From Chloroflexota bacterium (GTDB lineage Bacteria; Chloroflexota; Anaerolineae; Anaerolineales; Villigracilaceae), in contig VGNE01000006.1 of NCBI GenBank assembly GCA_016866215.1, positions 1 through 36,630 of the forward strand: a DNA stretch of 36,630 nucleotides, given 5' to 3'. Shown here piece after piece: positions 12,541-36,269 of the stretch. The stretch's first letter is position 1. Every line of letters starts with the position of its first letter. Under the pieces are notes generated by a model. It was not told the origin of the DNA and searched no databases. It saw nothing but the letters and a program-made list of their open reading frames with translations. The position numbers and the translations under genes were made by a program.

Positions 12541-13764
12541 CTATATGTCAAGTGTATCTTCGGAAATGATTTCCTGTGCGAGTTTTTGCAGCTCATTCGC
12601 ATCCTTTGTTTTTGCGGCATCGAAATATTGTGCCAGTAAATCCAGCGGGCTTAAACTGCTCACCGCCTTTCCCTCAGGGATGCGAACCCGCGCCTGGCTT
12701 TGCGGTTTTTTCAAGAAATGAAATTCGAATGCGTCCTCTGTATATTTTCGCAGAGCGGTTTCATCAATTAATGAATCCCATTCTCTTGGATATTCCACCG
12801 AAAGCCGCACAATCGCCTCAGACATTTCTCTGGGTTTGGGCAATGCGTCTTTAAGGGACTCGGTTACGTTCTCGCTGGACTTTAGGACTGCTCGGCGATC
12901 TATGAAAAATCTCACCCCTTTGAGTTCTCTCCATTCAACTTTGGTGTCTTTTCCTTTTTCAACATTTGCAATGACAAAGAATCTGTCTTCCTTTGCTTCA
13001 CCAAAATCCACACGCTCGATGGAGCCAGGGTAAATGACAGGCGGCTGATAGCCTTCATTTACATCCTGCGGTTTGTGAATATGTCCCATGGCAACATAAC
13101 TAAATTTTGGATTCTTTACCAAATTGCCTGAAAGCACAAGATCATTGCCGAGCATGACGAGCCTTTCACCGCCGAACTTCGCGCCCTCAATGGAGGCGTG
13201 AGCTGTCAGGATAATCGGTATGGATGAGTCAGCGCCTGCAATAAAATCTTCAATTAAACCCCCGATGTTTCCTTCGATGCGTAAAAATGCCTCTTTTGAA
13301 TCTAGCACACCTGTTGCGGCCATCAAACCCGAACGTGCGATCCACGGCATGGCGATGATTTGCAGGGGCAGTCCCCAAAGATCCTCCGGTCTTAGAAAAC
13401 ATGGCTGGTCCAGGACCCGCACATAAGGAACCTGTAAAGTTTTGAATTCCTGTACTGCATTTGCGCGCCCTGCCGCAGGGGAAATATCATGATTGCCGAT
13501 CAACAACAATGTAGGAATCTTCGTTTGCGATAAACGCATAATGCGTTTGCCCCACTCGCGTTGAAAGGTCGGTGTGGGTGAACGATCTTTATACGCGTCG
13601 CCCGCAAAGATGACCATATCCACTTTTTCTGAAATGGCAGTATCAACGATCGTATCGAGGGATTTGAGAAAGTCGAGAACACGGACAGGCAGGCCCGTTT
13701 CAGGGTCATGCCTGCCATAGTTGGCCATATCAATATGTGCGTCGGCGAAGTGGAGTAGTTTCAT
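12541..13764 (-). CDS. SbcD/Mre11-like DNA repair exonuclease
   Basis: A calcineurin-like metallophosphoesterase subunit that processes DNA ends, usually with the ATPase SbcC. All metal-binding motifs are present: FADAHID (residues 6-12), FAGDAYKDRSP (~53), LIGNHD (~90), LTAHAS (~188) and MGHIHKPQ (~227). 407 residues, a typical SbcD length. After the phosphoesterase domain there is a capping domain with a FGEAKEDRFFVI segment. No sbcC gene is found next to it: downstream is the MFS transporter and upstream the four-helix-bundle gene. The start is ATG at 13764, though no clear SD precedes it in the repeat-rich upstream DNA. Confidence 0.88.
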   Translation of the reverse strand: MKLLHFADAHIDMANYGRHDPETGLPVRVLDFLKSLDTIVDTAISEKVDMVIFAGDAYKDRSPTPTFQREWGKRIMRLSQTKIPTLLLIGNHDISPAAGRANAVQEFKTLQVPYVRVLDQPCFLRPEDLWGLPLQIIAMPWIARSGLMAATGVLDSKEAFLRIEGNIGGLIEDFIAGADSSIPIILTAHASIEGAKFGGERLVMLGNDLVLSGNLVKNPKFSYVAMGHIHKPQDVNEGYQPPVIYPGSIERVDFGEAKEDRFFVIANVEKGKDTKVEWRELKGVRFFIDRRAVLKSSENVTESLKDALPKPREMSEAIVRLSVEYPREWDSLIDETALRKYTEDAFEFHFLKKPQSQARVRIPEGKAVSSLSPLDLLAQYFDAAKTKDANELQKLAQEIISEDTLDI

Positions 13765-13830
13765 AGTTAGGTAGCTTGATAGTTTGATAGTTAAGTAGTT
13801 TGATAGTTGGATAGTTTTTTAGTTGGATGG
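13765..13830. repeat. Degenerate tgatagtt short tandem repeats
   Basis: About six imperfect copies of tagttNgatagtttgatag lie between the SbcD-like gene and the four-helix-bundle gene, running into the end of the latter. Related low-complexity sequence in the opposite orientation lies on the other flank (14207-14252, aaactacaaaactatgaaacc). These look like expanding simple repeats. Confidence 0.7.
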
Positions 13831-14199
13831 TTTGGATTTTCGTAAGTATCCAATCATACCGTTGATGAGACGTTTAGATTCAGTTGCAAGATTGTAAGCT
13901 GTTGTGAGTTCATCCTGGGTTATGTAATTGCGGTCAAGCGCAAGATACAACTCGGATTGCACCTCGCTTGCAGAACGCCTTGAGATTTTGAGGAAGCGAA
14001 TAAATTCAGGATTTGTCCCGGCGTCAAAACCTTCGGCAATATTGTGCATGACTGAACCAGCCGCATCTTGAATCTGACCGCTCAAACGAAGGTCTTTTGA
14101 AAATTTGGAGTGCTCAGTTAGATCGTAAATCAAATTAGTGAGTTGGCGAGCCTTTTGCCAGCTTTGCAAATCCTCAAACCTTTCAATCTTGGACATCAT
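13819..14199 (-). CDS. Four helix bundle protein (S23/IVP family)
   Basis: 126 residues, all-helical. The family signature is clear: FEDLQSWQKARQLTNLIYDL, DLRLSGQIQDAAGSVMHNIAEGF, FIRFLKISRRSASEVQSELYLALDRNYI. Members of this family were first described from intervening sequences in 23S rRNA genes and are now found as stand-alone genes and as accessory proteins of diversity-generating elements. No reverse transcriptase or variable repeat is nearby, so no such role is implied here. The gene is flanked on both sides by simple-sequence repeats, a common genomic setting for this family. The ATG at 14199 is followed by a second ATG; either could be used. Confidence 0.88.
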   Translation of the reverse strand: MMSKIERFEDLQSWQKARQLTNLIYDLTEHSKFSKDLRLSGQIQDAAGSVMHNIAEGFDAGTNPEFIRFLKISRRSASEVQSELYLALDRNYITQDELTTAYNLATESKRLINGMIGYLRKSKPSN

Positions 14200-14251
14200 A
14201 TCTCTTCTTAGTAAACTACAAAACTATGAAACCAACGCACTACCAAACTAA

Positions 14252-15601
14252 CTAAGGTTGCAATCCTAAATCCTGTAAGGCCTGCACAGCAGGAGCCCAA
14301 TTTACATGGACTTTTAATGCCGCACGGAAATCATCCACTGCATTTTTGGTGTTGCCAATTTGGTAATATGCACGTCCGCGCCAGATCAGGGATTCTTCAA
14401 GCGTGGGGGTCGCGATAGTGTCGTTCAATGTCGTGTTTGCCAGATTAATCACATCCTGATAACGGGCTGAGTAATAGTAGGCAAAGTACGGTCCAGTTTG
14501 ATACCACATCATGCGGAAGGGGCGGTTTCCCAGGTCTGTGTTCAAGTTTGCATACAAACGGAAAGCCTGATCGTATGCCATGGCGGCGTCCACATATTGC
14601 TGCAAAGCTACGTGGCTTGTGCCTTTGTTGAACCATGCAAAGAACAGATCGTTGCCACTTAGAGATTGGGTTTCTTTTTCAGCCAGTTCAAGCGCATGCT
14701 GGGTTGCCCATTTTTCATCTGCCCAGGGACCGAGCAATGCCAATACTTCCGCTTCTCGGTTTGCGGGATAAACGACCATAAAAAGATAATTGAAGGAGCG
14801 CCAGCCATCCAGATAGTTGGTATATTCACTCAAAAGATCCTTGCCTGGTTTGAGATAGGCATCCTGAACAATAAATCCGCCGCGCGCATTATCATAACCG
14901 GTGGTGAAAAGATAATGTCCGAGCCAGTCGATTTTTCCGTTGTAGTCGCGTTCGTAATATCCCTTTTCCGCTATTACGGGAAAACCAGCCGCGATCAAAC
15001 GTTTGACGAGCACTTCTTCGCCGCCATAGCGCATGAGGGCGCGATACTCCGTGTTCTCGTTGACGAAGTCCATGAGTTCATACGGCATGACATTTTTATC
15101 GGGCAAGCCTCGCTCAATAAAATCCTTTTTGAGATCACCTGAGCCCGGCTTAACGACTTTGGCGACATCATCACGATTTCCCTTCCAGCCCCAAAAATTA
15201 AGCGCCATTGTTAAATTGGCAGGACCGCAGTAATTCCAGCGATTGTGCTGGTCAACGTAGATCACTCCCGGCAGGATAACCGAAGCAGGCAGGGGCGTGG
15301 ATGTGATCGTTGACGTCGGACTAGGACCAAGCTTGGGTGTCGAAGTCGCCTGCGGGGTTAATGTCAGCAAGTATTCAGCGCGAGTCGTTGCAATGACGGT
15401 TTCAATGGTTAAGTCCGTTTTTTCGCTGGGTTGAAAGACGGCTTCGGCGGGCGGCTTGAAGAAGTAGACGATCCTTGTGCGCAGGCTTTCCACCCGCCAT
15501 GCGAGGTGTGAGTTAATCGACGGGAGATAATACAGCCCGATGGCAAGCATGAGCGCAAGCGGAATTAACCAGAGTTTATTAACTTTTGTAAATCTTTTCA
15601 T
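14252..15601 (-). CDS. C39-like cysteine peptidase with TPR-like C-terminus, membrane-anchored
   Basis: 449 residues from ATG at 15601; an upstream ATG at 15625 would add eight. A signal-anchor (LWLIPLALMLAIGLYYLPS) is followed by a threonine/proline-rich linker (~60-95). The peptidase_C39_2-like domain has the catalytic Cys in RWNYCGPANLTMALNFWGW and the His in LGHYLFTTGYD, then GGFIVQDAY. The last ~180 residues are helical with TPR-like repeats (FFAWFNKGTSHVALQQYVDAAMAYDQAF and LIWRGRAYYQIGNTKNAVDDFRAAL). C39-like domains of this type are thought to process extracytoplasmic substrates; no bacteriocin or exporter is nearby. Similar proteins are common in Anaerolineae. Confidence 0.85.
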   Translation of the reverse strand: MKRFTKVNKLWLIPLALMLAIGLYYLPSINSHLAWRVESLRTRIVYFFKPPAEAVFQPSEKTDLTIETVIATTRAEYLLTLTPQATSTPKLGPSPTSTITSTPLPASVILPGVIYVDQHNRWNYCGPANLTMALNFWGWKGNRDDVAKVVKPGSGDLKKDFIERGLPDKNVMPYELMDFVNENTEYRALMRYGGEEVLVKRLIAAGFPVIAEKGYYERDYNGKIDWLGHYLFTTGYDNARGGFIVQDAYLKPGKDLLSEYTNYLDGWRSFNYLFMVVYPANREAEVLALLGPWADEKWATQHALELAEKETQSLSGNDLFFAWFNKGTSHVALQQYVDAAMAYDQAFRLYANLNTDLGNRPFRMMWYQTGPYFAYYYSARYQDVINLANTTLNDTIATPTLEESLIWRGRAYYQIGNTKNAVDDFRAALKVHVNWAPAVQALQDLGLQP

Positions 15602-24153: not shown

Positions 24154-25479
24154 TTATACGTCTTTTGAAAGACGGAATGTTTGTGGAGTTGTAACATCCA
24201 CTTTGAGTTCGCGCAGGACTTCTTCGCCTTTGCGCGTTTCGATCACATGGCTGGAGATCCCAACGTCAACAGCCATTTTTCGCAGACTGCCGATCTTGTT
24301 GACGTGGAATTCCAGGCTGTTGTGCTGTTCGCTGATGGAATAATCGCGATAGCCTGCTTTGTCAAAAACCCGCTTCACTGGCGGAATATCCTCTCCGAAG
24401 ACCTTGGCGGTCTTCAGGAAATAATCCCTTTGCGAGAAGTACATGCGGCTTGGCAGGCGGTGTTCGCCGTTTTGTTTGTAGAGCTGACCCGTGTGTTTGT
24501 TCTCAAGCGAGCAGTAATGCACGCCGAGTTTCAAACCTTCATCCAGCGCGAAATCAATTAGATCAAGGCAGACCGTTTCGCTTCCTGCGATGGGAAGTCC
24601 ACCCGCATACCAGTACTCGTACAACACACGGAAGGGGTGGACTTTGACCTTGTAGCCCTTTTCCCGATAGATTTCGACCTTGTTCAGCGGGAAGCAAAAC
24701 TCCAGCAGGTTGATCCCAAAAATTCCCATGCGGTCCAATTCAAGCAGGATTTCCTTCATCTCGTCCAACGTGTTTGGCAGGATGGGCATCTCAACCATCA
24801 CATTCGGGATGTATTCGCGCGCAAGGGCGATATTGTCGTGGGTGTTGCGGTGCCCCTTTGCCAGATCATGCATGCGGATGCTGAAGCGGATTTCCTTCAA
24901 ACCTGCCTTTTGCAGAGATTCGAGTGTTGCACGGTCAATGTGATCGCCACAGGTGTACAAACGTGTATGGGCGGAGGGAAATAACTGTCGCGCGCGCTCA
25001 AAGAAACGATAAGTCTCTTCTTTGTATAAAAGCGGCTCACCACCAGTTAATGCCACATGCTGGACCCGCTGATTGGATGCATACAAGGCATCCAATTCTG
25101 CGGCCGTATCACGAGTATGCTCCCGATAATAATCGTAATCCTGTTGATTGGGATTGAAACAATAAAAACAATCACGGTGACATTTCAATGAAATAAAGAA
25201 CGTTGAACTTCCGATCCCGGTCTGGCAGGCCTGGCAGGAAGGAGAAATGCCATTGACATAAATGCTCTTATCGTCATTTCGCACGACTGCACCCTTTTTT
25301 CGCAAGTCCGCAGTTTTTTGCGCGGCTTCGACGGTCGTATCTTCTACTTCGACTTCGAGGCCCATCTGCCGCACTTGATCCATAAAATCCTGATAGATCT
25401 GCACGTAGATATTGGCGTACTCGCGCAGGGCGGGATTTTTTATTTCATTCAAAGTGGATTGTGTGATATCCAGGATCAT
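24154..25479 (-). CDS. Radical SAM protein of the molybdoenzyme locus
   Basis: 441 residues. The radical SAM motif CHRDCFYC (Cys100, Cys104, Cys107) follows LKCHRDCFYCFNPNQQ; HVALTGGEPLLYKEE contains the SAM-binding GGE motif. Before it, YVNGISPSCQACQTGIGSS (Cys82, Cys85) may hold another metal or cluster. The ~100-residue N-terminal helical extension and the C-terminal domain from about 340 (SRMYFSQRDYFLKTAKVFGEDI) are not part of the barrel. Its ATG overlaps the ferredoxin stop (ATGA), so the two are coupled. I infer a maturation role for the Mo-enzyme, such as modifying a peptide or cofactor, but family precedents differ and the substrate is unknown. Confidence 0.85.
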   Translation of the reverse strand: MILDITQSTLNEIKNPALREYANIYVQIYQDFMDQVRQMGLEVEVEDTTVEAAQKTADLRKKGAVVRNDDKSIYVNGISPSCQACQTGIGSSTFFISLKCHRDCFYCFNPNQQDYDYYREHTRDTAAELDALYASNQRVQHVALTGGEPLLYKEETYRFFERARQLFPSAHTRLYTCGDHIDRATLESLQKAGLKEIRFSIRMHDLAKGHRNTHDNIALAREYIPNVMVEMPILPNTLDEMKEILLELDRMGIFGINLLEFCFPLNKVEIYREKGYKVKVHPFRVLYEYWYAGGLPIAGSETVCLDLIDFALDEGLKLGVHYCSLENKHTGQLYKQNGEHRLPSRMYFSQRDYFLKTAKVFGEDIPPVKRVFDKAGYRDYSISEQHNSLEFHVNKIGSLRKMAVDVGISSHVIETRKGEEVLRELKVDVTTPQTFRLSKDV

Positions 25480-26681
25480 GTGCGCGGCTCTTTCTGGATT
25501 TTCTTCGGCATCATGGAACCAAACGGATGCATGCGGCGATATTCACAAAGTTGACATAATTTCATTCCATCGCGTGCCGCCATCAGCGTTTTGCAGCGCT
25601 CACATCGGACCATCGAGCCTGATTCTACGACGACGGATTCCTTCACGCTGAAAACTTTTCCAAAGGTCGGCGCATGGTCGAGGGTGATCGCATCGGGCAG
25701 GCAGACGTGTTCGCACAAGTCACAGCCGATGCAGTTCTGCGCGGAGAATGAGATGGAGAAGGTCATCTTGTCCTCGTTCTTCTCGAAACACAATGCCTTG
25801 GTGGGACAGACTCGTCCGCACGCGCCGCAAGCGGTACAGGAGTCAGAGATGGTGAGGGTGGCGAAATTGAAACCTTCAAGATAACCGCTTGAGGCGGCGT
25901 CCCCGCCGCCGAGGACGGCGGCTTGAGCAGATGGTAAATGCGAAACCGCGGACAGCAATCGTAATCTGTCGCGCCCCGGCTGGCGTTTGGATGCTGTCAC
26001 GCCGTTCTCCATTGCGCGCGCAAGAGCGACTTGTCCCTGCTTTGCCATCATGCGGAACAGGTCGCGGCGTGAGAGCGGGGGATTGGTCGCCTTCCATGCC
26101 ATACGTTCAACGGGTGCTTCGAGTTCATCCAAACAAATGATTGGATCAACCTTGTCCCATGCGGCAAGGAAGCGGCTTGCCCGTTCGGTTTGGGAGTGAA
26201 TTTCACGGTGGAGGGAATGCCACTCGCAGGCAGAACAGGCATCGGCGCGGACAATGAGGCGTTCCAGTCCAAGCGCGGAAAGGGTCAGGTAGGCGCCAGT
26301 TCCCAAGCCCGCGAGACATCCATGAATTTGAATCCCGATGGATTCTGAATCCGCGCCGGTTTCGGGGTGAGGGTGAAGTCCGCAGAGCAATTCGACGGGC
26401 TGGTCTTCGATATGTGTGGCGCAATTGAGTAAAATCGAAACATCGTCATCTGCGCGATACGCGCCAACAGGACAGGCGGGGATACAAGCAAGACACGATT
26501 GGCAAAGTTCTGTATTGATTGAAGGCGGCTTTCCAGTGGAGATCGCTTCAACAGGGCAAATGCTAAAACACGCCGCGCACTCCGAGTACTGATCCTGCGA
26601 GTGCAGGCAACGTGCGGAATCCATGAGGACTTGCGAACGGTCAATCGAAGCGAACCGTTCCGCGGCATTAAGCAGACTCAC
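25476..26681 (-). CDS. Polyferredoxin-like 4Fe-4S protein
   Basis: 402 residues from GTG at 26681, which overlaps the TorD stop by four bases (GTGA). I reject the upstream M at 26819, which lies in TorD. Four-cluster cysteine motifs: CAACFSICP and CQSCLACIPACP near the N-terminus, CTACGACGRVCP and CIGCDLCEHVCLP near residues 290-330, plus a C-terminal zinc-ribbon-like CERCKTLMA...CQLCEYRRMHPFG. The central part contains a DACSACEWHSLH segment. Residues ~252-267 (AQAAVLGGGDAASSGY) are encoded by a palindromic repeat. Electron carrier or cluster donor, probably to the radical SAM protein; this partner role is inference from overlap. Confidence 0.85.
   Translation of the reverse strand: MSLLNAAERFASIDRSQVLMDSARCLHSQDQYSECAACFSICPVEAISTGKPPSINTELCQSCLACIPACPVGAYRADDDVSILLNCATHIEDQPVELLCGLHPHPETGADSESIGIQIHGCLAGLGTGAYLTLSALGLERLIVRADACSACEWHSLHREIHSQTERASRFLAAWDKVDPIICLDELEAPVERMAWKATNPPLSRRDLFRMMAKQGQVALARAMENGVTASKRQPGRDRLRLLSAVSHLPSAQAAVLGGGDAASSGYLEGFNFATLTISDSCTACGACGRVCPTKALCFEKNEDKMTFSISFSAQNCIGCDLCEHVCLPDAITLDHAPTFGKVFSVKESVVVESGSMVRCERCKTLMAARDGMKLCQLCEYRRMHPFGSMMPKKIQKEPRT
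25888..25929. repeat. Palindromic repeat inserted in the ferredoxin reading frame
   Basis: Contains arms cttgaggcggcgtcc and ggacggcggcttgag and an exact 26-base match (25904-25929) to the element at 8670-8695. It encodes a Gly/Ala/Ser-rich linker of about 14 residues without breaking the frame. It is therefore an in-frame repeat insertion in a real protein. Confidence 0.8.
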
Positions 26682-27376
26682 AACCTGACCTCTTTCGGCA
26701 TTTCGATCTGGAGGGTTTCGGCAATCGCCTGCAGGGAGCCATGCACCAGGTGGGCGATGCCGCGATAGAAATCGGTGGTGGCATGTTGCTTGACGAGTTT
26801 CGCCCATGCGGGTCCCCAACGCAGCAGATGTTCGGAGAGAAAATCGCGCTGGGCTTGAAGGATTTCGTTTAGTTTGTTTTCGTCATCTTGTTCGATGGCT
26901 TGCAAAGCCAGTGAAGCTAGATGCGCGACGAACAGCATTTCAAGACCGATATGATCATCAGGTTCGCGATTTATTTTTTCAGCCTGCAAGCCGAAGCGTG
27001 CGTACCATTCGCGCACCTGTAATGTTTGTTCCTGAAAAAGCAGTTTCTTCTCGCTGAAAAAGACCGAGGCCCACATGGGTGCAAGTACCTTTCCCAGCCC
27101 GATAAACAAATGCAAATGGTCGTCCTGCAATGCTTTGAATTGCGGTGTTTCCAAGCCGCCGCAATTTTCATTTGTCCAGCGTTGCAGCAGTTCAATGCCA
27201 TGCCGGGTTTCAGTTTGCTCCGCGCCAAACGGAGACTCGCTAAATACATCGTCGCGAATCAGCGTATCAAGCCAGTCTTTGTCCAGGTCGGCGTAAAGTA
27301 TTCTTCCCAATAAACCGAACAACAGCGATTCCCCCAGGATGGTGGGTTTCAGCTCTTTAAGGGTGTTTGTCAGCAT
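26678..27376 (-). CDS. TorD/DmsD-type molybdoenzyme chaperone
   Basis: 232 residues, mainly helical. TorD-family chaperones bind the Tat signal and help load cofactor. Recognisable features are the start LTNTLKELKPTILGESLLFGLLGRIL, the ESPFGAEQTETRHG segment, LHLFIGLGKVLAPMWASVFF, REWYARFGLQAEKINREPDDHIGLEML and a C-terminal AWAKLVKQHATTDFYRGIAHLVHG. E/PxDHIGxE is a typical TorD motif. Its start overlaps the WD40-haem gene by 20 bases, and its stop overlaps the ferredoxin start by four, so the whole set is tightly packed. It would chaperone the DmsA-like subunit at 31940. Confidence 0.9.
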   Translation of the reverse strand: MLTNTLKELKPTILGESLLFGLLGRILYADLDKDWLDTLIRDDVFSESPFGAEQTETRHGIELLQRWTNENCGGLETPQFKALQDDHLHLFIGLGKVLAPMWASVFFSEKKLLFQEQTLQVREWYARFGLQAEKINREPDDHIGLEMLFVAHLASLALQAIEQDDENKLNEILQAQRDFLSEHLLRWGPAWAKLVKQHATTDFYRGIAHLVHGSLQAIAETLQIEMPKEVRL

Positions 27377-30350
27377 CAGGTTTCTCCTCAGCGGGTGATG
27401 ATTTTCTCATTAAGAATAAACCACGAAGGACGATTGCCAATAGGGTCGCAAGTGAGAGAATATAGGTGATAAATGTAATCACTTGCAAAATCCCAATACC
27501 GGCCTTTGTAAGCCAGGCATGAACCCTTGCGACAAGCGTCGGCTCGATGGTTTCAAACACCGGCAAAATTTCAGGGCCTGGATGCAGCGCCAAGATTACT
27601 GCCGATTCTATCTGGATGGGGTTTGCCCCACCCGTCAATGCGACCATTTCCCCGCTTCGGACTGCGACCTGGGGCTGGTTGCTAAGACCCGAAACTTTTG
27701 CCTCCCCCTTATGGATGTACAGCCAGCCTGTTCCCACAACAGGGTATTCCAATGCGAAACTTCCGCTTGTGATTTCCACATCCAGATTCGGAAGGTGAAT
27801 TTTCAGCGGATTCACAGCCGTATTGCTTTCCCCCCACAGCCAGCCAGAGGTCAATTCGAATTTCAATCCGTTTACGGTGACTGCCGATTCCGGCGGCATA
27901 ATAACCTGACCGTCATTCCATGCGATGAACTGCGTCTCTGGGCGCGGTACAAGTTGAAATGCCAGGGTGGAGGCGGAGTCTGAAATCCCTTGCGGTTGGG
28001 CATAATACCCCGGTGCAGAAGCGGTGATGAATTCAGCTTCGGGCGGCAGGTTGGGAATCAGGAATCCGCCTGATGATGGATCAACTGCCTGGATGATTTC
28101 ACGGTCACCCACGCTGACCCATGCAAACGGAAGAAAATTTTCATTCTCTGTCGTTACGGAACCCATTAGCGGTTTGGCGGCGGCAGGGACAATTTCAATT
28201 CGCATTTCAGGCGATTGGAATAAATCAACCCGCTGCGCGGGCGCGAAAAGATTTTTTTCAGCCAGCATGAAGGCATCGGCTGTGAGCAGGTATTGCCCAA
28301 CGGGAATATCCTCGAATGTGAACGTATTCTGCGGCGTGGATGCGGCCTGATACACAGGACCCGCCGGTAATTGAATTGCCCACAGTTTCGTTGAATCCCC
28401 TGCGGTAAGGCTGCCTTCGATGCGCCCTTTCATGGCATGGGCGGTCAACGTGACTGACGACTCATCTGTGCTGGGATTGAGTGTGACGTGTATAACTTCC
28501 GGGCTGGCATACAACATCCCGTTCAGCATTTGAGGCGGAATGATCAGGTCGTACGTTGTAACAGCCTGGGATAACTTCTCCAATTCCAGCAGCATGGTTC
28601 CATCTATGCCAGAGATTCCATTTCCAAATCGCTCACGCCACCCATACAAAATTGTTGTTGCTTCAATCGAAAGACCAGCCAGCGGCTCATTTGTATCGGC
28701 ATCCACAACTTGAACGGGAAGGGCGGCTTTTTCGCTTGAGTCAACCCGCGCCCAGCGCGAATCGGTTGCCTCTTGTCCATCGGGAGCAATGGCAGTAACC
28801 ACAAAGCGCACCGTGCCGGTTGGAATGCCCGCTTGAGCCAAAGAGTCATCGTGACATTGAGTGCACTGCCGTGTGGCAGGTTTGGATGAATAGGAAGGCG
28901 GAGAGTTTGGGTTGATGGCAACGTTGAAAGTGAAATCGCCGCTTGCCGATGGGGTGGTTTCGAGCGTAGCTGTCACCTGCCCATTCGAGATAATATCGAG
29001 GCGGACGTTTACTTTCGCAACACCGGTTTCATCCGGATAGTACACCCTGCCGCTGATGATCTCAGGCGCCAGGGAATTTCCGATTGTGTAAAATGTCTCA
29101 CCGTTTCCGGGTGAGGCAAGTACGATGGCGATGTCGCTGTTATTGACGGGCACGCCGGAGACATCATAAGCGGCGTTGTAGTTGATTGGCGTTCTCTCCA
29201 CCAATGAAGAGCGCGGGAATGCTGTACACCAGGAAAGCCCGATGCCACCCGCATGACAGGCTTCGCAGCTCAAATCTATGACGCGCGCGGGTTCGTTTTG
29301 TCCGCGGCGGTGATGGCATTGACGGCAATCCGATGGCACGTCAAGGACTGCTTCGTCGGGATACGCTGTCAGGTCTTCCAAACTCCACAGGCGCACGGTG
29401 TTGTCTCCGCCGCCGGATGCGAGAGTTTTTCCATCCGGAGAAAAAGCAACAGCATAGACGAAATCTGAGTGTCCCTGCAAGACTTTCAATGCGCTGCCAT
29501 CGCGAACGTTCCATAAGCGCACGGTCTGATCCACAGAACCGGATGCAATCGTTTGACCGTCCGGTGAAAACGCAATTCCCAGAATGCTCGATTTGTGCCC
29601 CTCCACAACCCGCATCAGACTCCCATCGGATAGATTCCACAAACGGATGGTTCTATCAAACCCGCAGGAAGCGAGAGTCTGTCCATTCGGCGAGAAGGCG
29701 AGGCAGCGCGGCCAGTCCGTGTGACCTGTGAACGTGTAAAGCAGTTCGCCGTTCGCGACATTCCACACACGGACGGAATTATCTGAAAGCGCCCCGGCAA
29801 TCAAATTTCCATCCGCTGAAAGCGCAGTTGCACGGATGCCTGTAACATCGTTCAAGACAAGCACCAACTTGTCATTACTGGTTTGCCAAATGCGAATCGT
29901 ATCATCGTCTGATGCGGCGGCGATCAGCGAGCCGTTCCGCGAGATGGAAAGGCTACGCACCCAGCCTTCGGGTTCCTCCAATTTTTTGAGCGCTTGTGGG
30001 TTTGAGATGTTCCAGAATTTGACGCTATTGTCGAACAGCCCCGCGGCAAGCTGGCCGTTTTGCGGTAGAAAGACGAGGCTGCGTACCCATACGCCGGTTT
30101 GAATAATTTCCGGCTCGGATGATTGCTGTGTATCGAAAAGATAAATTCCAGATGTACCGCCGACGGCAAGCCGGGTTCCATCTGGAGAGAATGCCAGGGC
30201 GTGTGCTCTTTCGTATCCGCTGGAGGAAAGCTCAAAAACCCGAACCAGTTCCCCGGTCTGGGCAGATGCGGTGTTGGAAGTCACCAAAAGAACCGCAGTG
30301 ATTAAGATGAGGGTCAAGAGCGGGATGATCCGAAGTTTCATAGTTTTCAA
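27357..30350 (-). CDS. Exported WD40 / c-type haem / FecR-like protein
   Basis: 997 residues with a Sec signal peptide (residues 1-30, LLTLILITAVLLVTSNTASA). Residues ~47-325 form seven WD40 blades, the last six ending in motifs like NTVRLW, and the GDNTVRLW/FDRTIRLW repeats are regular. Then come haem-binding CRQCH (342-346), CEACH (362-366) and CTQCH (496-500). Two carboxypeptidase-regulatory-like beta domains follow, around 430-620. Near the C-terminus GWLYIHKGEAKVSG...VRSGEMVALTGG looks like a FecR-type domain, and a membrane helix at ~950-980 anchors it (VITFITYILSLATLLAIVL), with the tail in the cytoplasm. Located directly after DmsC, its position implies an electron-transfer or sensing subunit. 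No known full-length relative comes to mind. Confidence 0.85.
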   Translation of the reverse strand: MKTMKLRIIPLLTLILITAVLLVTSNTASAQTGELVRVFELSSSGYERAHALAFSPDGTRLAVGGTSGIYLFDTQQSSEPEIIQTGVWVRSLVFLPQNGQLAAGLFDNSVKFWNISNPQALKKLEEPEGWVRSLSISRNGSLIAAASDDDTIRIWQTSNDKLVLVLNDVTGIRATALSADGNLIAGALSDNSVRVWNVANGELLYTFTGHTDWPRCLAFSPNGQTLASCGFDRTIRLWNLSDGSLMRVVEGHKSSILGIAFSPDGQTIASGSVDQTVRLWNVRDGSALKVLQGHSDFVYAVAFSPDGKTLASGGGDNTVRLWSLEDLTAYPDEAVLDVPSDCRQCHHRRGQNEPARVIDLSCEACHAGGIGLSWCTAFPRSSLVERTPINYNAAYDVSGVPVNNSDIAIVLASPGNGETFYTIGNSLAPEIISGRVYYPDETGVAKVNVRLDIISNGQVTATLETTPSASGDFTFNVAINPNSPPSYSSKPATRQCTQCHDDSLAQAGIPTGTVRFVVTAIAPDGQEATDSRWARVDSSEKAALPVQVVDADTNEPLAGLSIEATTILYGWRERFGNGISGIDGTMLLELEKLSQAVTTYDLIIPPQMLNGMLYASPEVIHVTLNPSTDESSVTLTAHAMKGRIEGSLTAGDSTKLWAIQLPAGPVYQAASTPQNTFTFEDIPVGQYLLTADAFMLAEKNLFAPAQRVDLFQSPEMRIEIVPAAAKPLMGSVTTENENFLPFAWVSVGDREIIQAVDPSSGGFLIPNLPPEAEFITASAPGYYAQPQGISDSASTLAFQLVPRPETQFIAWNDGQVIMPPESAVTVNGLKFELTSGWLWGESNTAVNPLKIHLPNLDVEITSGSFALEYPVVGTGWLYIHKGEAKVSGLSNQPQVAVRSGEMVALTGGANPIQIESAVILALHPGPEILPVFETIEPTLVARVHAWLTKAGIGILQVITFITYILSLATLLAIVLRGLFLMRKSSPAEEKPDADKHP

Positions 30351-30405: not shown

Positions 30406-31305
30406 TTAGATTCCGATGCGGTAGTGTGTGGCATAGAAGATGAAACGTCCCAGAACTTCGCCGAGAAGCGCGAGAGCAAAGGCGCTGTAGGCAAGGGTTG
30501 TCAGTGTTTTCTCCTTTTCAGCGACAGAGGCGTTTCGGTAGAGATATGCCGCCAGCACACCTGCCCCAACGAACAAAACCAGCAGGCGGAAGAAGAACAC
30601 TGCGCCATAGGGACCGACCATCATGGTTAGGGATTGCAGGGCTGCGCCTCCCTGGGTGGCGAGGTATCCCATATATATCGGCAGGACAATGAACTCAATG
30701 CCGAGCAGGACGATGGCGCTCAAGGCGAGACCTTGCAGAGCCGTGCTGATGGCTTTCATCTCTTCGCCCTTGAGCCCGGCGTAACCAACGGCAAGCCCAG
30801 CCGCCATACCCAAAACGCCAATTAACAGGCTGCCGGCTATGAGTGTCACGGGTGTGGCGAGTGTGTTCCATGAGGGCTGGGTCACGATCATGTACACCAT
30901 GCCAATGGCATAGATGTAGACCGCGGCAATGATTACAGTGATCCAACCGATGACTACACGGAAACCTTCGCCCCCGGCTTTTCGCCATTGCAGGTAAGTG
31001 TATAGCGCAGCAAAGACCAGGAAGGTCACAGCAAGAACCACTTCACGGCTCAGCCATGATGAGGCGATGTTTGGTACAGCGCGGACGATGTTCAGCGGGC
31101 TGCCGAGGTGGAAGAGAGAGGCGAGGAGCGCCAGCGCCATGATGGGAACAACCATAAAAAGCGGGCGGTTGGTCAGGCGGTCTGCTACTTCATTGCCGGC
31201 TTTTCCGGCAAGATAGGCTCGCACGATCATCAGCACGATCATCAAACCGGCTGCCGTTTGCCCGAGGATTGTGAAGGCTAACAAAGCCCATTCTCGAGTA
31301 TTCAT
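30406..31305 (-). CDS. DmsC-like membrane anchor (NrfD/DmsC type)
   Basis: 299 residues with about eight transmembrane segments. It starts NTREWALLAFTILGQTAAGLMIVLMI, a typical DmsC N-terminus, and includes LFHLGSPLNIVRAVPNIASSWLSREV. The C-terminus LGEVLGRFIFYATHYRIGI is strongly reminiscent of DmsC. It anchors the DmsAB catalytic dimer in the cytoplasmic membrane and oxidises menaquinol. It follows dmsB after one base gap (31305/31307). The partial gene at the right window edge (36288-36630) shares the C-terminal signature GRFLFYATHIRIGL, so the organism has at least two such anchors. Confidence 0.92.
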   Translation of the reverse strand: MNTREWALLAFTILGQTAAGLMIVLMIVRAYLAGKAGNEVADRLTNRPLFMVVPIMALALLASLFHLGSPLNIVRAVPNIASSWLSREVVLAVTFLVFAALYTYLQWRKAGGEGFRVVIGWITVIIAAVYIYAIGMVYMIVTQPSWNTLATPVTLIAGSLLIGVLGMAAGLAVGYAGLKGEEMKAISTALQGLALSAIVLLGIEFIVLPIYMGYLATQGGAALQSLTMMVGPYGAVFFFRLLVLFVGAGVLAAYLYRNASVAEKEKTLTTLAYSAFALALLGEVLGRFIFYATHYRIGI

Positions 31306-31306
31306 G

Positions 31307-31927
31307 TTAGAGCTCCTCCAGGTTCATCAAGCGACCATTTGCGTTGCGGGAAGACTTGGTGACCTTGTTTGGTGTGTAGACCACGGCGGGTTCGGTGATG
31401 CTGGGGTCGGGCAATGGGGCGGGGTCTGCAAACGTACCGTGCTTCGCCTGAAGTTCATCGAGGGCACCAAAGTCCATGGCACGGTAGGGGCACGCTTCGA
31501 CGCAGGCAGGACGTTCGCCCATATCCACGAGGTCATGGCACATGTCGCATTTGGTCATTACACTCAGTTCTTCGTTGAACTGCGGAGCGCCGTAGGGGCA
31601 TGCCCACGAGCAGTACCGGCAGCCAATGCACATATCCGCGTTTATCAGGACGATGCCGTCATCGCGCTTGGAGATCGCACTCGTCGGGCAGACATCCATG
31701 CAGATCGGTTTCGCACAGTGCATACAAGCGGACGAAACGGAATAAGCATACACATTGCTGGGGATCATCTGCCCGCTCTGATCGATCCACTCGCCGCCTT
31801 CGTATTGGAACACCCGGCGCCAACGTACGCCAACGGGGAGGCTGCTCTTATCCTTGCAGGCAACCTGGCACGCTTTGCAGCCGGAACATTTGTTTATGTC
31901 TACATAAAAAGCAAGTTGTTTAGCCAT
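31307..31927 (-). CDS. DmsB-like 4Fe-4S electron transfer subunit
   Basis: 206 residues. Four ferredoxin-type cysteine groups are visible: CSGCKACQVACKD (~15-27), CMHCAKPICMDVCP (~69-82), CIGCRYCSWACP (~102-113) and CDMCHDLVDMGERPACVEACP (~126-146). This is the DmsB/PhsB/NrfC pattern, which passes electrons from the membrane anchor to the molybdenum subunit. ATG at 31927 has AGGAGAATGAACC ahead of it, 12 bases after the dmsA stop. It stays without a signal peptide, as is normal, and is exported with DmsA. Confidence 0.95.
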   Translation of the reverse strand: MAKQLAFYVDINKCSGCKACQVACKDKSSLPVGVRWRRVFQYEGGEWIDQSGQMIPSNVYAYSVSSACMHCAKPICMDVCPTSAISKRDDGIVLINADMCIGCRYCSWACPYGAPQFNEELSVMTKCDMCHDLVDMGERPACVEACPYRAMDFGALDELQAKHGTFADPAPLPDPSITEPAVVYTPNKVTKSSRNANGRLMNLEEL

Positions 31928-31939
31928 GGTTCATTCTCC

Positions 31940-34405
31940 TTATAACCTTTCGACCTGAACCAGGTTGGTGTGCGCTGTGAAACCCTTTGCCATCGGGGTG
32001 GGGCGATAGTTTGTCAGCGTGTTGCCGCAACCGCGGATATCCACGCCATCCGCATTGGGAGTGTAGTGGGCGCCCTGCGGTATGTTGGTTGTACCGGGGC
32101 GGATGCGATTCGTCACATACGCCGGGATATGGACAATCCCGCGGTCGTTGTAAACCTTGACTGTATCGCCGTTCTTGATGCCGCGTGCCTCCGCGTCCAG
32201 CGGATTGATCCAAATGCATTGCGGATGCGCCTCGCGCAGGATGTCGACGTTTTCGAAGGTCGAATGTGAACGCGCAATGAAGTGCGTCGTCATCATCATC
32301 AACGGATATTTTTCACGCAGCGGGTCACTCACACCTTCCCATTCGGGGATGTAGATCGGGATGGGGGGGATTTCCTCGTTCTTCAGGTTTGCCAGCACAG
32401 GCGAGTAGATCTCGATCTTGCCGGTGGCTGTGCCGAGGGGATTCGCTTCAGGGTCCGCCCGGAAGGCTTCGAAGCCGACGAAGGGCTTGCCGCCCGGAAG
32501 TTTGAAGTAACCCTTCTCTTTGAATTCTTCGAGGGAGGGGAAGTTCGAGACGCTCGCTTGAGCGCCCGCCACCATATCCCGCATCCAGTCTTCACGGGTG
32601 GCATGTCCGTCGCGGAATTTGTCACCGAATCCAAGCCGCTCCGCCAATTGTTCAGCAATCCAGACATCGTCTTTGGCTTCGAACATCGGCTCGATGACCT
32701 TGTGGTTATACAGCGCCCAGGCATGATTGCCCTTGATGCCGTGACCTTCACCGGTGATGATATTGTCAACTTCAAAGCCGGTTGTGCCGGGCAGGATGAT
32801 GTCCGAGTATACGGCGCTGGGAGTCATACCCACTTCCACCGTGACAATCATTTCCAGCTTGGAGTCATCCTCAAGTACCTTGCGGGTATAGTTCACATCC
32901 GCATGCTGGTTGATGATGCAATTGCCGCCGTGATTCCACATGAACTTCATGTTGGATTTCAAGCGTAAGTCCTTGTTCGCCTGGGTGGTTGTCGTATCGC
33001 CCGCGGTGGCGTTCCAGCCGGTGCTGGCTCCGCGAATGTAATCCTTCTCCACGGTCATTTCAGTGCCACGTGTGACAAAATCAGGCCACATGAAGCATGG
33101 AATGGAGATTTGGACAGGGTTGGGAGGAACCGGGATGCCGCCCATCGGGCAGTACCCACCGCCGGGGAGTTGCCCCGTATTGCCGCCGCTGATGCCGAAG
33201 TTGCCGGTCATGGCAGCCAGGATGGGAACCGCGCGGACGAATTGCTCGCCGTAGGCGCGTCTCTGTGGACCCCAGCACTGGATGATGGCACACGGTTTGA
33301 CAGATGCAATTTCGCGCGCCAGGTTTGCAATACGTTCCGCTGGAATGCCGGTGATGGCAGCTGCCCATTCGGGGGTCTTTTCAACTTTATCGTAGCCCTT
33401 GCCCGTCAGGTACGCCATGTAGGACGAATTGCGCGGCGCGCCTTCCGGCAGGGTGCTCTCATCGAAACCAGCTGCATGGGTAGCCATGAATTCCTTGTCG
33501 TACAGGTTTTCCTTGACCATCACATACGCCATGGCGGCAATCAGTGCCGTATCGGTTCCGGGGTTAATCGGAATCCATTCGCCTTGGGTCGCAGCAACCG
33601 TATCGGTCAGCATCGGATCCACGACGATGAATTTTGTTCCTTTTTCGGCGGCTTTCATGTACCAATACCCGCCGTTGTCACCGCCGGAGCGGGTGACAAG
33701 TGAGTTGTCACCGAGCAGCAAAACCAGTTTGGAGTTGACCACATCATCGGCGGAATTTCCTGTATATCCGCCTAAAATGTACGGCATGGCAACGCCGTAT
33801 GCGGCTTCACTGTACGTGCCATAGTAGCCGACGTACCCGCCAAAGAGGTTCAACATTCTTTGAATGATCGAAGAGCCGTCGGGGCCGTTCCAGGTGACAC
33901 CCCACGCATAATTGAAATAAAACGCTTCGTTGCCGTAGCTTTCCTTAATGCGCTTCATTTCACTTGCGATGGTGTCCAGCGCCTCTTCCCAACTGATGCG
34001 CTCGAATTTGCCTTCACCACGTTTACCAACTCTCTTCAAGGGATATTTCAGGCGGTCTGGGGCGTATACGCGCCTGATCTGCGAACGTCCACGCACACAA
34101 GGGATGGCACGCGGAACTTCGGCAGTTTCCTCCTCCACAGGTGTGGGATCGGGGACAATGCGTTGGAGTGTGCCATCCTTAACCTTAGTTGCCAGAATAC
34201 AGCGGCCACCGCAGTTGTGATAGCACCCTACTGTGAGTGTTTGTTCCTCACCCGCCGCAGCGGCGCCCTCAATTGCTTTGAGACCGAAATCGACGCCGCC
34301 CGCAAGAGCTGCCGTCCCGCCGATTGCGGCGCTCCACTTAAGGAAACTGCGCCGGGTCATCACGGTATCATTCAGGGCTTTTGTGAGGAAATTATTTTGG
34401 GTCAT
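31940..34405 (-). CDS. DmsA-like molybdopterin oxidoreductase catalytic subunit
   Basis: 821 residues from ATG at 34405, which has CCGGAGGAAAGC ahead. The longer frame to 34510 is rejected. A Tat signal (TRRSFLKWSAAIGGTAALAGG) shows folded export. The N-terminal CYHNCGGRC with a later IPCVRGRSQ supplies a 4Fe-4S cluster. The Mo-ligand region contains YYGTYSEAAYG, where the Ser would coordinate Mo as in DMSO reductases. Further motifs are SKLVLLLGDNSLVTRSGG, WIPINPGTDTALIAAM and NPVQISIPCFMWPDF. The C-terminal domain includes MTTHFIARSHSTFENVD. Substrate could be DMSO, TMAO, tetrathionate-like or another oxyanion; the sequence does not decide. It is the first gene of the operon. Confidence 0.93.
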   Translation of the reverse strand: MTQNNFLTKALNDTVMTRRSFLKWSAAIGGTAALAGGVDFGLKAIEGAAAAGEEQTLTVGCYHNCGGRCILATKVKDGTLQRIVPDPTPVEEETAEVPRAIPCVRGRSQIRRVYAPDRLKYPLKRVGKRGEGKFERISWEEALDTIASEMKRIKESYGNEAFYFNYAWGVTWNGPDGSSIIQRMLNLFGGYVGYYGTYSEAAYGVAMPYILGGYTGNSADDVVNSKLVLLLGDNSLVTRSGGDNGGYWYMKAAEKGTKFIVVDPMLTDTVAATQGEWIPINPGTDTALIAAMAYVMVKENLYDKEFMATHAAGFDESTLPEGAPRNSSYMAYLTGKGYDKVEKTPEWAAAITGIPAERIANLAREIASVKPCAIIQCWGPQRRAYGEQFVRAVPILAAMTGNFGISGGNTGQLPGGGYCPMGGIPVPPNPVQISIPCFMWPDFVTRGTEMTVEKDYIRGASTGWNATAGDTTTTQANKDLRLKSNMKFMWNHGGNCIINQHADVNYTRKVLEDDSKLEMIVTVEVGMTPSAVYSDIILPGTTGFEVDNIITGEGHGIKGNHAWALYNHKVIEPMFEAKDDVWIAEQLAERLGFGDKFRDGHATREDWMRDMVAGAQASVSNFPSLEEFKEKGYFKLPGGKPFVGFEAFRADPEANPLGTATGKIEIYSPVLANLKNEEIPPIPIYIPEWEGVSDPLREKYPLMMMTTHFIARSHSTFENVDILREAHPQCIWINPLDAEARGIKNGDTVKVYNDRGIVHIPAYVTNRIRPGTTNIPQGAHYTPNADGVDIRGCGNTLTNYRPTPMAKGFTAHTNLVQVERL

Positions 34406-34510
34406 TGCTTTCCTCCGGAAAATGGATTGAAAGTTCGATATGGTTTGGAAAAGTGATATGCCTGGGGGGCATGGAATACGGGGCGAACGCGGATTTCCTT
34501 CAATAAGCAC

Positions 34511-34693: not shown

Positions 34694-35563
34694 TTAATTG
34701 TCAAATTCATTCCCCGTTATAGTCGGTAGATTCCAAGTGTTATTGCTAAAATGGCAGCGCTTGCAATCAACTTTAAGTTGAATGGAATGGGATGAATATG
34801 GTTCTGTAAGAGAACTTCCTCCTTCGGAAATCATCCGCCAGGTAACCCATAATCCTCCAATTTGATGCCGGCCGACCTGAAGTCCGCTGGCATCATGACA
34901 TGCTACGCACGTTACGCCAGCATGGGTAAAACCATGGATGGAATGAGGTTTGTAGGCAGCCTGAGTCGCGGCCGGATGGCAGCTTGGACCTCCACAAAAC
35001 GGATTGCCCTCATCAGGATGGCCGCCAATCGGAGTCGCTGGCGGTTGATCATCAATCTGAAGAATATTCGCGTGACAGGTTGAATTTGAACAGCTTGCAG
35101 CTGTACTATGCGGCTCATGGCAATCGATACATTCAAAGCCTTGATGCGCCAGGTTGTTTGAAGCTCCTTGACGAGTGGGTGCTAAGAAATCGGCATGGCA
35201 TTTCTGACAGAGTGTATTACTATTTGGAACAGACTCGTAGGCTTGTGTTTCAGGGTTCCACCAGGCAATTGTCGCACTTATGACGCCACTCTTGTTTTCA
35301 TGGCACTGGTCACAGCGAATTTTCTCATTTGTTTCTTGAGGCAACAGTGAATTATGCTGTAAATTATTTGCATGGGGACTATTTTCCCAAGTATTTTGAA
35401 CATCTAGATACTGTTTCCCGGTATCCCTATCCGGAACGGGCGTAGGCATACCTTCAGGAGGATGCAAAGAAACCGATGGTGTCACAGTAATAGGTACGGT
35501 TAATGTATTATTCTGACATGCACAGAGAATGATAACAAAAGCGCTGATTATCCATCGCTTCAT
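34694..35563 (-). CDS. Multihaem c-type cytochrome lipoprotein
   Basis: 289 residues. A lipoprotein signal (FVIILCAC, Cys16 lipidated) is followed by a low-complexity linker. Five canonical haem motifs are present: CDQCH (84), CQKCH (119), CIDCH (145), CVACH (219) and CKRCH (267). Two further CxxxxCH motifs, CSNSTCH (158) and CGGPSCH (190), are also present, as in some Geobacter-type cytochromes. Many distal histidines are available. It would sit on the outside of the membrane and could pass electrons to or from the DmsABC-like enzyme or an external partner. It has its own ATG at 35563 and lies upstream of dmsA, on the same strand. Confidence 0.9.
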   Translation of the reverse strand: MKRWIISAFVIILCACQNNTLTVPITVTPSVSLHPPEGMPTPVPDRDTGKQYLDVQNTWENSPHANNLQHNSLLPQETNEKIRCDQCHENKSGVISATIAWWNPETQAYESVPNSNTLCQKCHADFLAPTRQGASNNLAHQGFECIDCHEPHSTAASCSNSTCHANILQIDDQPPATPIGGHPDEGNPFCGGPSCHPAATQAAYKPHSIHGFTHAGVTCVACHDASGLQVGRHQIGGLWVTWRMISEGGSSLTEPYSSHSIQLKVDCKRCHFSNNTWNLPTITGNEFDN

Positions 35564-35612: not shown

Positions 35613-36269
35613 TCATTTTTCTCGGGGTGAAATTAATCCATGTTTAAAAGCATACGTAGCGGCTTGAGTGCGATTCTCCAGGTGAAGTTTTTCCAGAATA
35701 TTTTTTAAGTGGCTCTTTACAGTATTGATGGAAATGGAAAGTTTCTGTGCTATCGCTTGATTGCTGGCTCCGCTGGCTACCAACCGGAGAACGAACAATT
35801 CTCTTTCGGTCAGAGGCTGTTCCCCTTTTTCCTCGTCTGCCAGGCGATTTGCCACTGCTTTCAAGAGTTTCCCTGCCATGGTGCGTGTCATAGCTGTTTC
35901 CCCTTTGATAACACCGCTTAACAAATCAAATAGCTCTGTTGCATCAAGGCTTTTCAATAAATAGCCTGAGACTCCAAGTTGAACAGCCTCATAGAGATGA
36001 CCATCTCGTTCGGATGATGTGAGCATCACGATGGCGATTTGAGGGAATCGAGCGCGTATCTCCTTGGCGGCTTGAAGACCGTCCATTTGCGGCATGTAAA
36101 TATCCATGAGGATGACATCAGGATTTAGTTTTTCCGCCATTTGGATGGCTTCCTCGCCTGTTTCCGCCTCGCCTACCACTTCAACAAAATCCTCACGAGT
36201 TTTCATCAGGCCGATCAGGCCCTGGCGGAAGAGTTTGTGGTCATCTGCGATCAAAACTTTAATGGTCAT
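35613..36269 (-). CDS. NarL-type response regulator of the molybdoenzyme locus
   Basis: 218 residues. The receiver at 1-120 has IADDHKLFRQG, phospho-acceptor Asp56 in VILMDIYMP, and the conserved Lys in GYLLKSLD. The LuxR-type HTH is LTERELFVLRLVASGASNQAIAQKLSISINTVKSHLKNILEKL. The NarL group controls anaerobic respiratory genes. It lies upstream of the multihaem and dms genes, on the same strand, so it probably regulates them; the sensor kinase is outside the window. Confidence 0.93.
   Translation of the reverse strand: MTIKVLIADDHKLFRQGLIGLMKTREDFVEVVGEAETGEEAIQMAEKLNPDVILMDIYMPQMDGLQAAKEIRARFPQIAIVMLTSSERDGHLYEAVQLGVSGYLLKSLDATELFDLLSGVIKGETAMTRTMAGKLLKAVANRLADEEKGEQPLTERELFVLRLVASGASNQAIAQKLSISINTVKSHLKNILEKLHLENRTQAATYAFKHGLISPREK

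Follow-up and report, generated by a model that had tools for sequence, protein, structure and literature searches.

Results

Architecture of the encoded protein

We analysed a stretch of 36,630 nucleotides from a Chloroflexota bacterium (Anaerolineales; Villigracilaceae; assembly GCA_016866215.1, contig VGNE01000006.1, positions 1 to 36,630), which is called the window in the following. The gene of interest lies on its minus strand (27357-30350) next to genes for a DmsABC-type molybdoenzyme, and it encodes an exported, membrane-anchored protein, in which a WD40 propeller is joined to c-type haem motifs. We class this protein as a probable accessory subunit that serves electron transfer in a DmsABC-type complex. 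The reading frame comprises 997 codons from a TTG start, and translation of the same interval on the plus strand yielded many stops. Since two related proteins (loci L014 and L017) begin at the residue equivalent to the window ATG at codon 4, the ATG at 30341 is the likely start. An initial annotation, which was made from the sequence alone, had described a 997-residue frame but did not state the strand. The frame was confirmed, but translation probably begins three codons further in.

The signal peptide, the seven WD40 blades, the three CxxCH motifs, the carboxypeptidase-regulatory-like segments and the C-terminal helix of that annotation were all recovered on the minus strand. The propeller matched PF00400 with E=4.7e-62 and its predicted model has 28 strands at residues 36-323, which form seven four-stranded blades. 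The CarboxypepD_reg profile matched all 22 C-terminal rows of our alignment of relatives at E<=0.5. Signal peptide and membrane helix were called by reading the sequence and the model. For the FecR-like region the outcome was divided. In the predicted model, residues of about 806-932 matched the FecR-family structures 6ovk (Z 13.0; 115 residues, 2.7 A) and 4m0h (Z 12.6), but no FecR family was present in the complete Pfam lists for the C-terminal part of the window protein or among the matches listed for the window proteins and for the 22 rows (for the latter, 25 of 36 families). Thus, this assignment is accepted by predicted fold and not by sequence.

The full-length model reached a mean predicted local distance difference test (pLDDT) of 77.3 and a predicted template modelling score (pTM) of 0.52, and the corresponding values for the C-terminal part were 80.5 and 0.62. 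Because of the low pTM the arrangement of the domains relative to each other is unreliable in these models. Residue ranges beyond 330 are positions of the C-terminal model plus 330. In the structure search with this model, the parts outside model residues 74-397 were barely covered by the match list, and Foldseek returned only loose multidomain matches for the whole C-terminal model.

At an equivalent repeat position of blades 2-5 we found conserved arginines (R90, R173 and R215 in 11 of 11 fusion proteins, R132 in 10 of 11), which by symmetry would sit on an arc of one propeller face. Trp-Val-Arg is not rare at this position of bacterial WD40 repeats, so that the conservation is only a lead.

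The CxxCH motifs are located at residues 342, 362 and 496. When the residues of the protein were shuffled 20,000 times, 21 shuffled sequences carried one CxxCH and none carried two or more. All three motifs are invariant in 11/11 fusion proteins, which share 38-75% identity with the window protein. Among the 22 C-terminal rows (23-73% identity) both cysteines and the histidine of the third motif align in every case. In L053, which is cut by a contig end and stands outside these rows, eight residues separate the two cysteines. Conserved CxxCH motifs in an exported protein suggest a c-type cytochrome, for which haem loading is predicted, and the genome gave three matches to the cytochrome-assembly family PF01578. 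The haem-motif loops were modelled without haem and mostly had pLDDT values <50.

The surrounding operon

On the same strand the window genes follow each other in the order NarL-type regulator, multihaem cytochrome, DmsA, DmsB, DmsC, the gene described here, DmsD-like chaperone, multi-cluster ferredoxin and radical SAM protein (Table 1). DmsA and DmsB score above curated family cut-offs and the third subunit belongs to the DmsC family of membrane anchors, which together identify a DmsABC-type enzyme. The serine at the position that we take to be the molybdenum ligand of DmsA is kept in 14 aligned rows. For the relatives, six of nine DmsA sequences scanned scored below the family cut-off, one of these being cut by a contig end. 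The DmsABC-type label rests on homology, and reduction of dimethyl sulfoxide (DMSO) or a related S/N-oxide is a candidate activity.

Table 1. Positions of the gene, its domains, its neighbours and the CxxCK cytochromes of related loci (window coordinates unless a locus is named)
Feature	Position	Strand	Remark
Whole gene, exported membrane-anchored WD40 / di-haem / Ig-like / CarboxypepD_reg / FecR-like protein, 997 aa	27357..30350	-	
Signal peptide, about residues 4-31	30258..30341	-	by inspection of the sequence and of N-termini in relatives
Seven-bladed WD40 propeller, about residues 36-325	29376..30245	-	PF00400 and predicted model
Di-haem segment, C342xxCHH and C362xxCH, about residues 337-379	29214..29342	-	homology to cytochrome
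Ig/FnIII-like domain, about residues 404-539	28734..29141	-	third haem motif C496xxCH500 in loop
CnaB/transthyretin-like and CarboxypepD_reg domains, about residues 540-805	27936..28733	-	
FecR-like fold, about residues 806-932	27555..27935	-	structure match
C-terminal helix region, about residues 939-997	27357..27536	-	membrane helix 954-983 and short tail
DmsD/TorD-like chaperone	26678..27376	-	PF02613; 20-base overlap with 3' end of the gene
Multi-cluster 4Fe-4S protein	25476..26819	-	listed reading frame overlaps chaperone gene; true start probably further in
Radical SAM protein	24154..25479	-	present in many related loci
DmsC-type membrane subunit	30406..31305	-	PF04976, 84 vs 22.3 bits
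DmsB	31307..31927	-	above TIGR02951 cut-off, 235.5 vs 214.1 bits
DmsA	31940..34510	-	above TIGR02166 cut-off, 896.4 vs 777.7 bits; Tat signal
Multihaem cytochrome c, lipobox-like signal	34694..35563	-	5 CxxCH and 2 CX4CH (CX4CH and lipobox by eye)
NarL-type response regulator	35613..36269	-	DmsC-like gene and histidine kinase follow past window edge
CxxCK cytochrome, L049	17602-18714		
CxxCK cytochrome, L054	8572-9561		
CxxCK cytochrome, L051	11477-12472		
CxxCK cytochrome, L056	11857-12816		
CxxCK cytochrome, L052	6530-7759		
CxxCK cytochrome, L055	10627-11598		
CxxCK cytochrome, L050	12453-13454		

Two neighbours deserve a separate remark. The radical SAM protein has HxsC as its best NCBIfam match, far below the cut-off, and in many loci its gene adjoins those of the multi-cluster ferredoxin and the DmsD-like chaperone. 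Next to the NarL-type regulator a second DmsC-like membrane protein is encoded (contig positions 36288-37208, mostly past the window; 28-32% identity with DmsC), which is followed in the window contig by a GAF-type histidine kinase. The pair of DmsC-like protein and regulator also occurs in L013-L017, L019, L046 and L050, and together with the kinase it possibly forms a quinone-sensing module.

Association with DmsABC genes and distribution

We examined 23 related copies outside the window. One copy (L045; contig starts inside the gene) was set aside and a fragment of 65 residues (L057) was not counted. L018, which apparently is the same contig as L014 (equal length and reading frames), was counted together with it in the neighbourhood tally. 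The alignments and the tree do not include L045 and L053 (contig-end cut), the second alignment also lacks L047, and L057 was not aligned. Homologues of DmsA and DmsB were found within 5 kb of 21 of the 22 assessable copies. On these grounds we rejected the possibility of a common stand-alone protein that is never found near molybdoenzymes, and the link to a DmsABC-like enzyme proposed in the initial annotation turned out to be strong.

The gene matched in 5/41 relatives and in 12/396 genomes of the class (own genome included in both counts). Five of the 25 genomes of the same genus (own included) carry it. Four of these contain DmsA at E<=1e-60, and in the fifth (G012) the gene has DmsABC next to it at the end of a contig (L021). 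The other 20 genomes passed neither the gene search nor the DmsA search at this threshold. DmsA homologues without the gene occur in G033, G034 and G037, and there is a second such DmsA copy in G017. Thus, DmsA does not require this gene.

Within the own family (f1) the WD40 part is present wherever the contig reaches that region, and the window, L013-L017 and L019 encode the lipoprotein cytochrome next to the fused protein. In three other families of the Anaerolineae (f26, f53, f62) the anchored protein lacks a WD40 part and has a single haem motif. Its reading frames comprise 610-715 aa where complete and mostly start with a signal-like N-terminus. In a sample of 400 genomes of the phylum, matches outside the window family were partial only and mainly involved the CarboxypepD_reg region. 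Genomes of f53, f26 and f62 were absent from these matches, probably because they had not been drawn, so that this negative is non-exhaustive. A contig scan by peptide patterns returned five close relatives only, none of which established a reach beyond Chloroflexota.

Two further peculiarities were observed. At L051, the copy lacking DmsA and DmsB homologues, a gene of the aldehyde ferredoxin oxidoreductase type is found instead, about 5 kb from the anchored-protein gene. Beside the cytochromes and the anchored protein this locus also encodes a histidine kinase (13142-15148), whose two CxxCH motifs probably belong to the sensor region. In the metagenome-assembled genome LaPlata_bin-4228 the whole operon is present twice, in diverged versions on different contigs (L013, L016), and this genome may mix two organisms.

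Origin of the di-haem segment

Next to seven of the 11 WD40-less copies (six genomes) lies a gene for a cytochrome that has five to seven CxxCH motifs in addition to two CxxCK. We call it the nine-motif cytochrome, and some of its last motifs read CX4CH. The di-haem segment of the window protein aligned with the last two motifs of this cytochrome and the following WCxxF (42% identity in 45 aa; E=1.8e-10 when the 21 local multihaem sequences were searched). Motif-preserving shuffles yielded Z values of 5.7-9.6 for six of the seven nine-motif cytochromes and of <=1.1 for 14 other multihaem rows, a set of rows that includes both L014 and its duplicate L018. The one failure among the seven (Z 2.1) was the L050 cytochrome, which has an altered tail. 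A chance likeness of haem motifs was rejected by these shuffles. Homology to the nine-motif family was found for the last two motifs only. The window protein lacks the full set of two CxxCK and five to seven CxxCH motifs and has kept this terminal pair.

The two forms also differ in their distribution. At E<=1e-20 the full cytochrome was found in 9/396 genomes of the class, including 6/6 genomes with WD40-less copies, and in 0/6 f1 genomes (the WD40 part was seen in five of these and the sixth contains a fragment). The remaining three of the nine genomes have cytochromes nearer to the lipoprotein cytochrome. In L047, which comes from another genus of the own family, the WD40-dihaem gene ends with TGA and is followed by a GTG-started gene for the anchor, and the two proteins have separate signal peptides.

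Taken together, these data make displacement of a multihaem cytochrome by a propeller well supported. The simplest order of events is a separate cytochrome, then replacement of its front by the propeller, then fusion to the anchor. The protein seems to be a shortened electron wire, in which most of a many-haem cytochrome has been exchanged for a propeller and the remainder has been fused to the anchor. A more complete version of this history holds that WD40 blades displaced most of the nine-motif cytochrome, that the terminal haem pair was kept and then fused to the anchor, that all three stages are extant, and that the propeller, with its arginines on four blades, docks in place of conduction by the lost haems. 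For this combined scenario we see about even odds.

Two further groups of cytochromes were observed. The loci L120-L123 (G131, G255, G270 and the second locus of G346) encode pairs of multihaem cytochromes, each with a single CxxCK, and share a recurrent setting of another kind. These are nearer to the lipoprotein type and were not counted as nine-motif family, and DmsABC and the anchored protein were not found in the stretches of these loci that were read. The cytochromes with two CxxCK motifs and their partners with one or two CxxCK occur mostly beside DmsABC-like genes. CxxCK motifs are best known from NrfA-type enzymes.

Discussion

Proposed function and alternative explanations

We propose that the protein is an accessory haem-relay and docking subunit of the DmsABC-type complex, which was made by propeller displacement and subsequent fusion, and we assign this reading a probability of roughly 0.55. 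In Villigracilaceae-type Anaerolineales the subunit would sit on the outer face of the cytoplasmic membrane. Its propeller may dock DmsAB and, where encoded, the lipoprotein cytochrome, and the retained haems may act as a short relay that passes electrons between the docked partners. The FecR-like and transthyretin-like domains would then form a stalk above the membrane helix anchor. Docking of a redox partner had been suggested in the initial annotation. It fits the displacement and fusion history, but the partner is one that we infer, as are the direction of electron flow, the haem loading and the substrate.

Several observations weigh against this proposal. L051 has no DmsABC genes in 20 kb, yet the anchored protein and both cytochromes are present. 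The third haem motif has the spacing CxxCH in 20/22 rows, and L047 and L051 have CX3CH. As to distal haem ligands, H347 is the sole invariant histidine outside the propeller that is not part of a CxxCH motif, and the SHN that precedes the last motif pair of the cytochrome is missing from the fusion. The tree gave one to two state changes (one change in 52% of bootstraps), so that a single WD40 clade was not settled, and neither was the placement of L047. The polarity of the change is therefore deduced from the broader distribution of the cytochrome form among families. Finally, a separate multihaem cytochrome was not seen in the 17-20 kb stretches of L020, L044, L046 and L047, for which the rest of the genomes was not searched. 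A local cytochrome partner is thus not general, and a general partner would have to be either the enzyme or a cytochrome whose gene lies elsewhere in the genome. Because of these four loci and the spacing of the third motif we lowered our confidence from 0.60 to the value given above.

The same observations lend some weight to a mere scaffold or anchor, in which propeller and beta-rich stalk serve to tether DmsAB and any haem sites that remain would be relics or have a structural role. Most haem motifs of the cytochrome are gone, at least one conserved distal-histidine element has been lost, the haem-motif loops are of low confidence in the models, the third motif is CX3CH in two relatives and four WD40-bearing loci lack another multihaem cytochrome nearby. 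However, neither the invariance of the three CxxCH motifs in fusion proteins as diverged as 38-75% identity nor the retention of the C, C and H of the third motif in all 22 rows would be expected of relics, and we consider this explanation rather unlikely. An extracellular electron conduit, which would link the enzyme to insoluble or intercellular partners and not only to the quinone pool, would account for the multihaem cytochromes that accompany Dms genes in the window, in L013-L017, in L019 and at most WD40-less loci, and it has an analogy in the Shewanella DmsEFAB system. On the other hand, there is a DmsC-type subunit, which is linked to quinone, the wire is shortened in the WD40 forms, and a further multihaem cytochrome was not seen in the stretches of L020, L044, L046 and L047. 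We regard such a conduit as the least probable of the explanations considered.

A role in sensing redox state, the second function proposed in the initial annotation, gained no specific support. Here the haem-propeller would sense redox state or a ligand and signal to the histidine kinase and the NarL-type regulator, or via the FecR-like part. Indeed, the window and several relatives encode a response regulator close to this gene, a FecR-like fold is predicted, and L051 retains the anchored protein, the cytochromes, the regulator and the two-CxxCH kinase without DmsABC. However, an anti-sigma part on the cytoplasmic side is missing from the protein, which has only a short tail, and a scan of nine window genes revealed no sigma factor, although it was not aimed at one. 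The gene adjoins dmsC away from the kinase, and a likelier sensor partner is the DmsC-like protein that lies beside the regulator in nine neighbourhoods (eight loci and the window). Moreover, a regulator homologue was not seen in the stretches of L020, L044, L048, L049, L054 and L056, some of which are cut by contig ends. A sensor thus appears improbable, though less so than the conduit.

These data suggest that a protein-binding scaffold can take the place of a multihaem wire without loss of the wire's terminal haems. Since the three stages exist in separate genomes, the number of haems that such a conduit needs, and the role of the rest, become testable. For the DmsABC-like enzyme group of uncultured Chloroflexota, our analysis identifies a recurrent extra subunit.

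Comparison with known systems

The periplasmic fold of FecR-family proteins (PupR, 6ovk; BDI_1681, 4m0h) appears to be shared by residues of about 806-932. FecR regulators carry a cytoplasmic anti-sigma domain before a single membrane helix. In contrast, the window protein starts with a signal peptide, has no cytoplasmic anti-sigma domain and its membrane helix follows the FecR-like part. Cytochrome cd1 nitrite reductase also combines a c-type haem with a propeller. However, its propeller is catalytic and binds a cofactor, whereas that of the window protein is of the WD40 type without known cofactor site.

In Shewanella, decahaem DmsE and outer-membrane DmsF are part of the DMSO respiration pathway. 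DmsEFAB is described as an extracellular DMSO/iodate reductase, and there DmsAB is served by a multihaem cytochrome, as may be the case here. The window cytochrome matched the DmsE family TIGR03508 weakly and below the cut-off (20.3 vs 192.2 bits, E=3.1e-4). In contrast to that system, DmsC is present in the window and a propeller-anchor protein stands in place of decahaem DmsE.

In planctomycetes, c-type haem domains and WD40 repeats are among the domain combinations of PSCyt proteins (PMC5615132). These proteins accompany other planctomycete-specific domains, and no PSCyt family was present in the Pfam lists for the C-terminal part of the window protein. The open-access literature searched did not describe a WD40-dihaem-anchor fusion.

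The closest known enzymes are complex iron-sulfur molybdoenzymes of the DmsABC type (DMSO/selenate reductase family). Classical DmsABC consists of three subunits and is described together with other NrfD-type complexes (PMC8076601). The window encodes DmsA, DmsB, DmsC and a DmsD-like chaperone together, and differs by adding the haem-propeller-anchor protein and a lipoprotein multihaem cytochrome. The nearest prior report that we found concerns the Chloroflexi genome RBG-9, for which octahaem cytochromes were predicted in operons with subunits of the DMSO-reductase family (PMC3971608). The accessible text of that report does not describe a WD40 fusion, and the likeness is one by description: RBG-9 resembles the cytochrome-bearing relatives found here.

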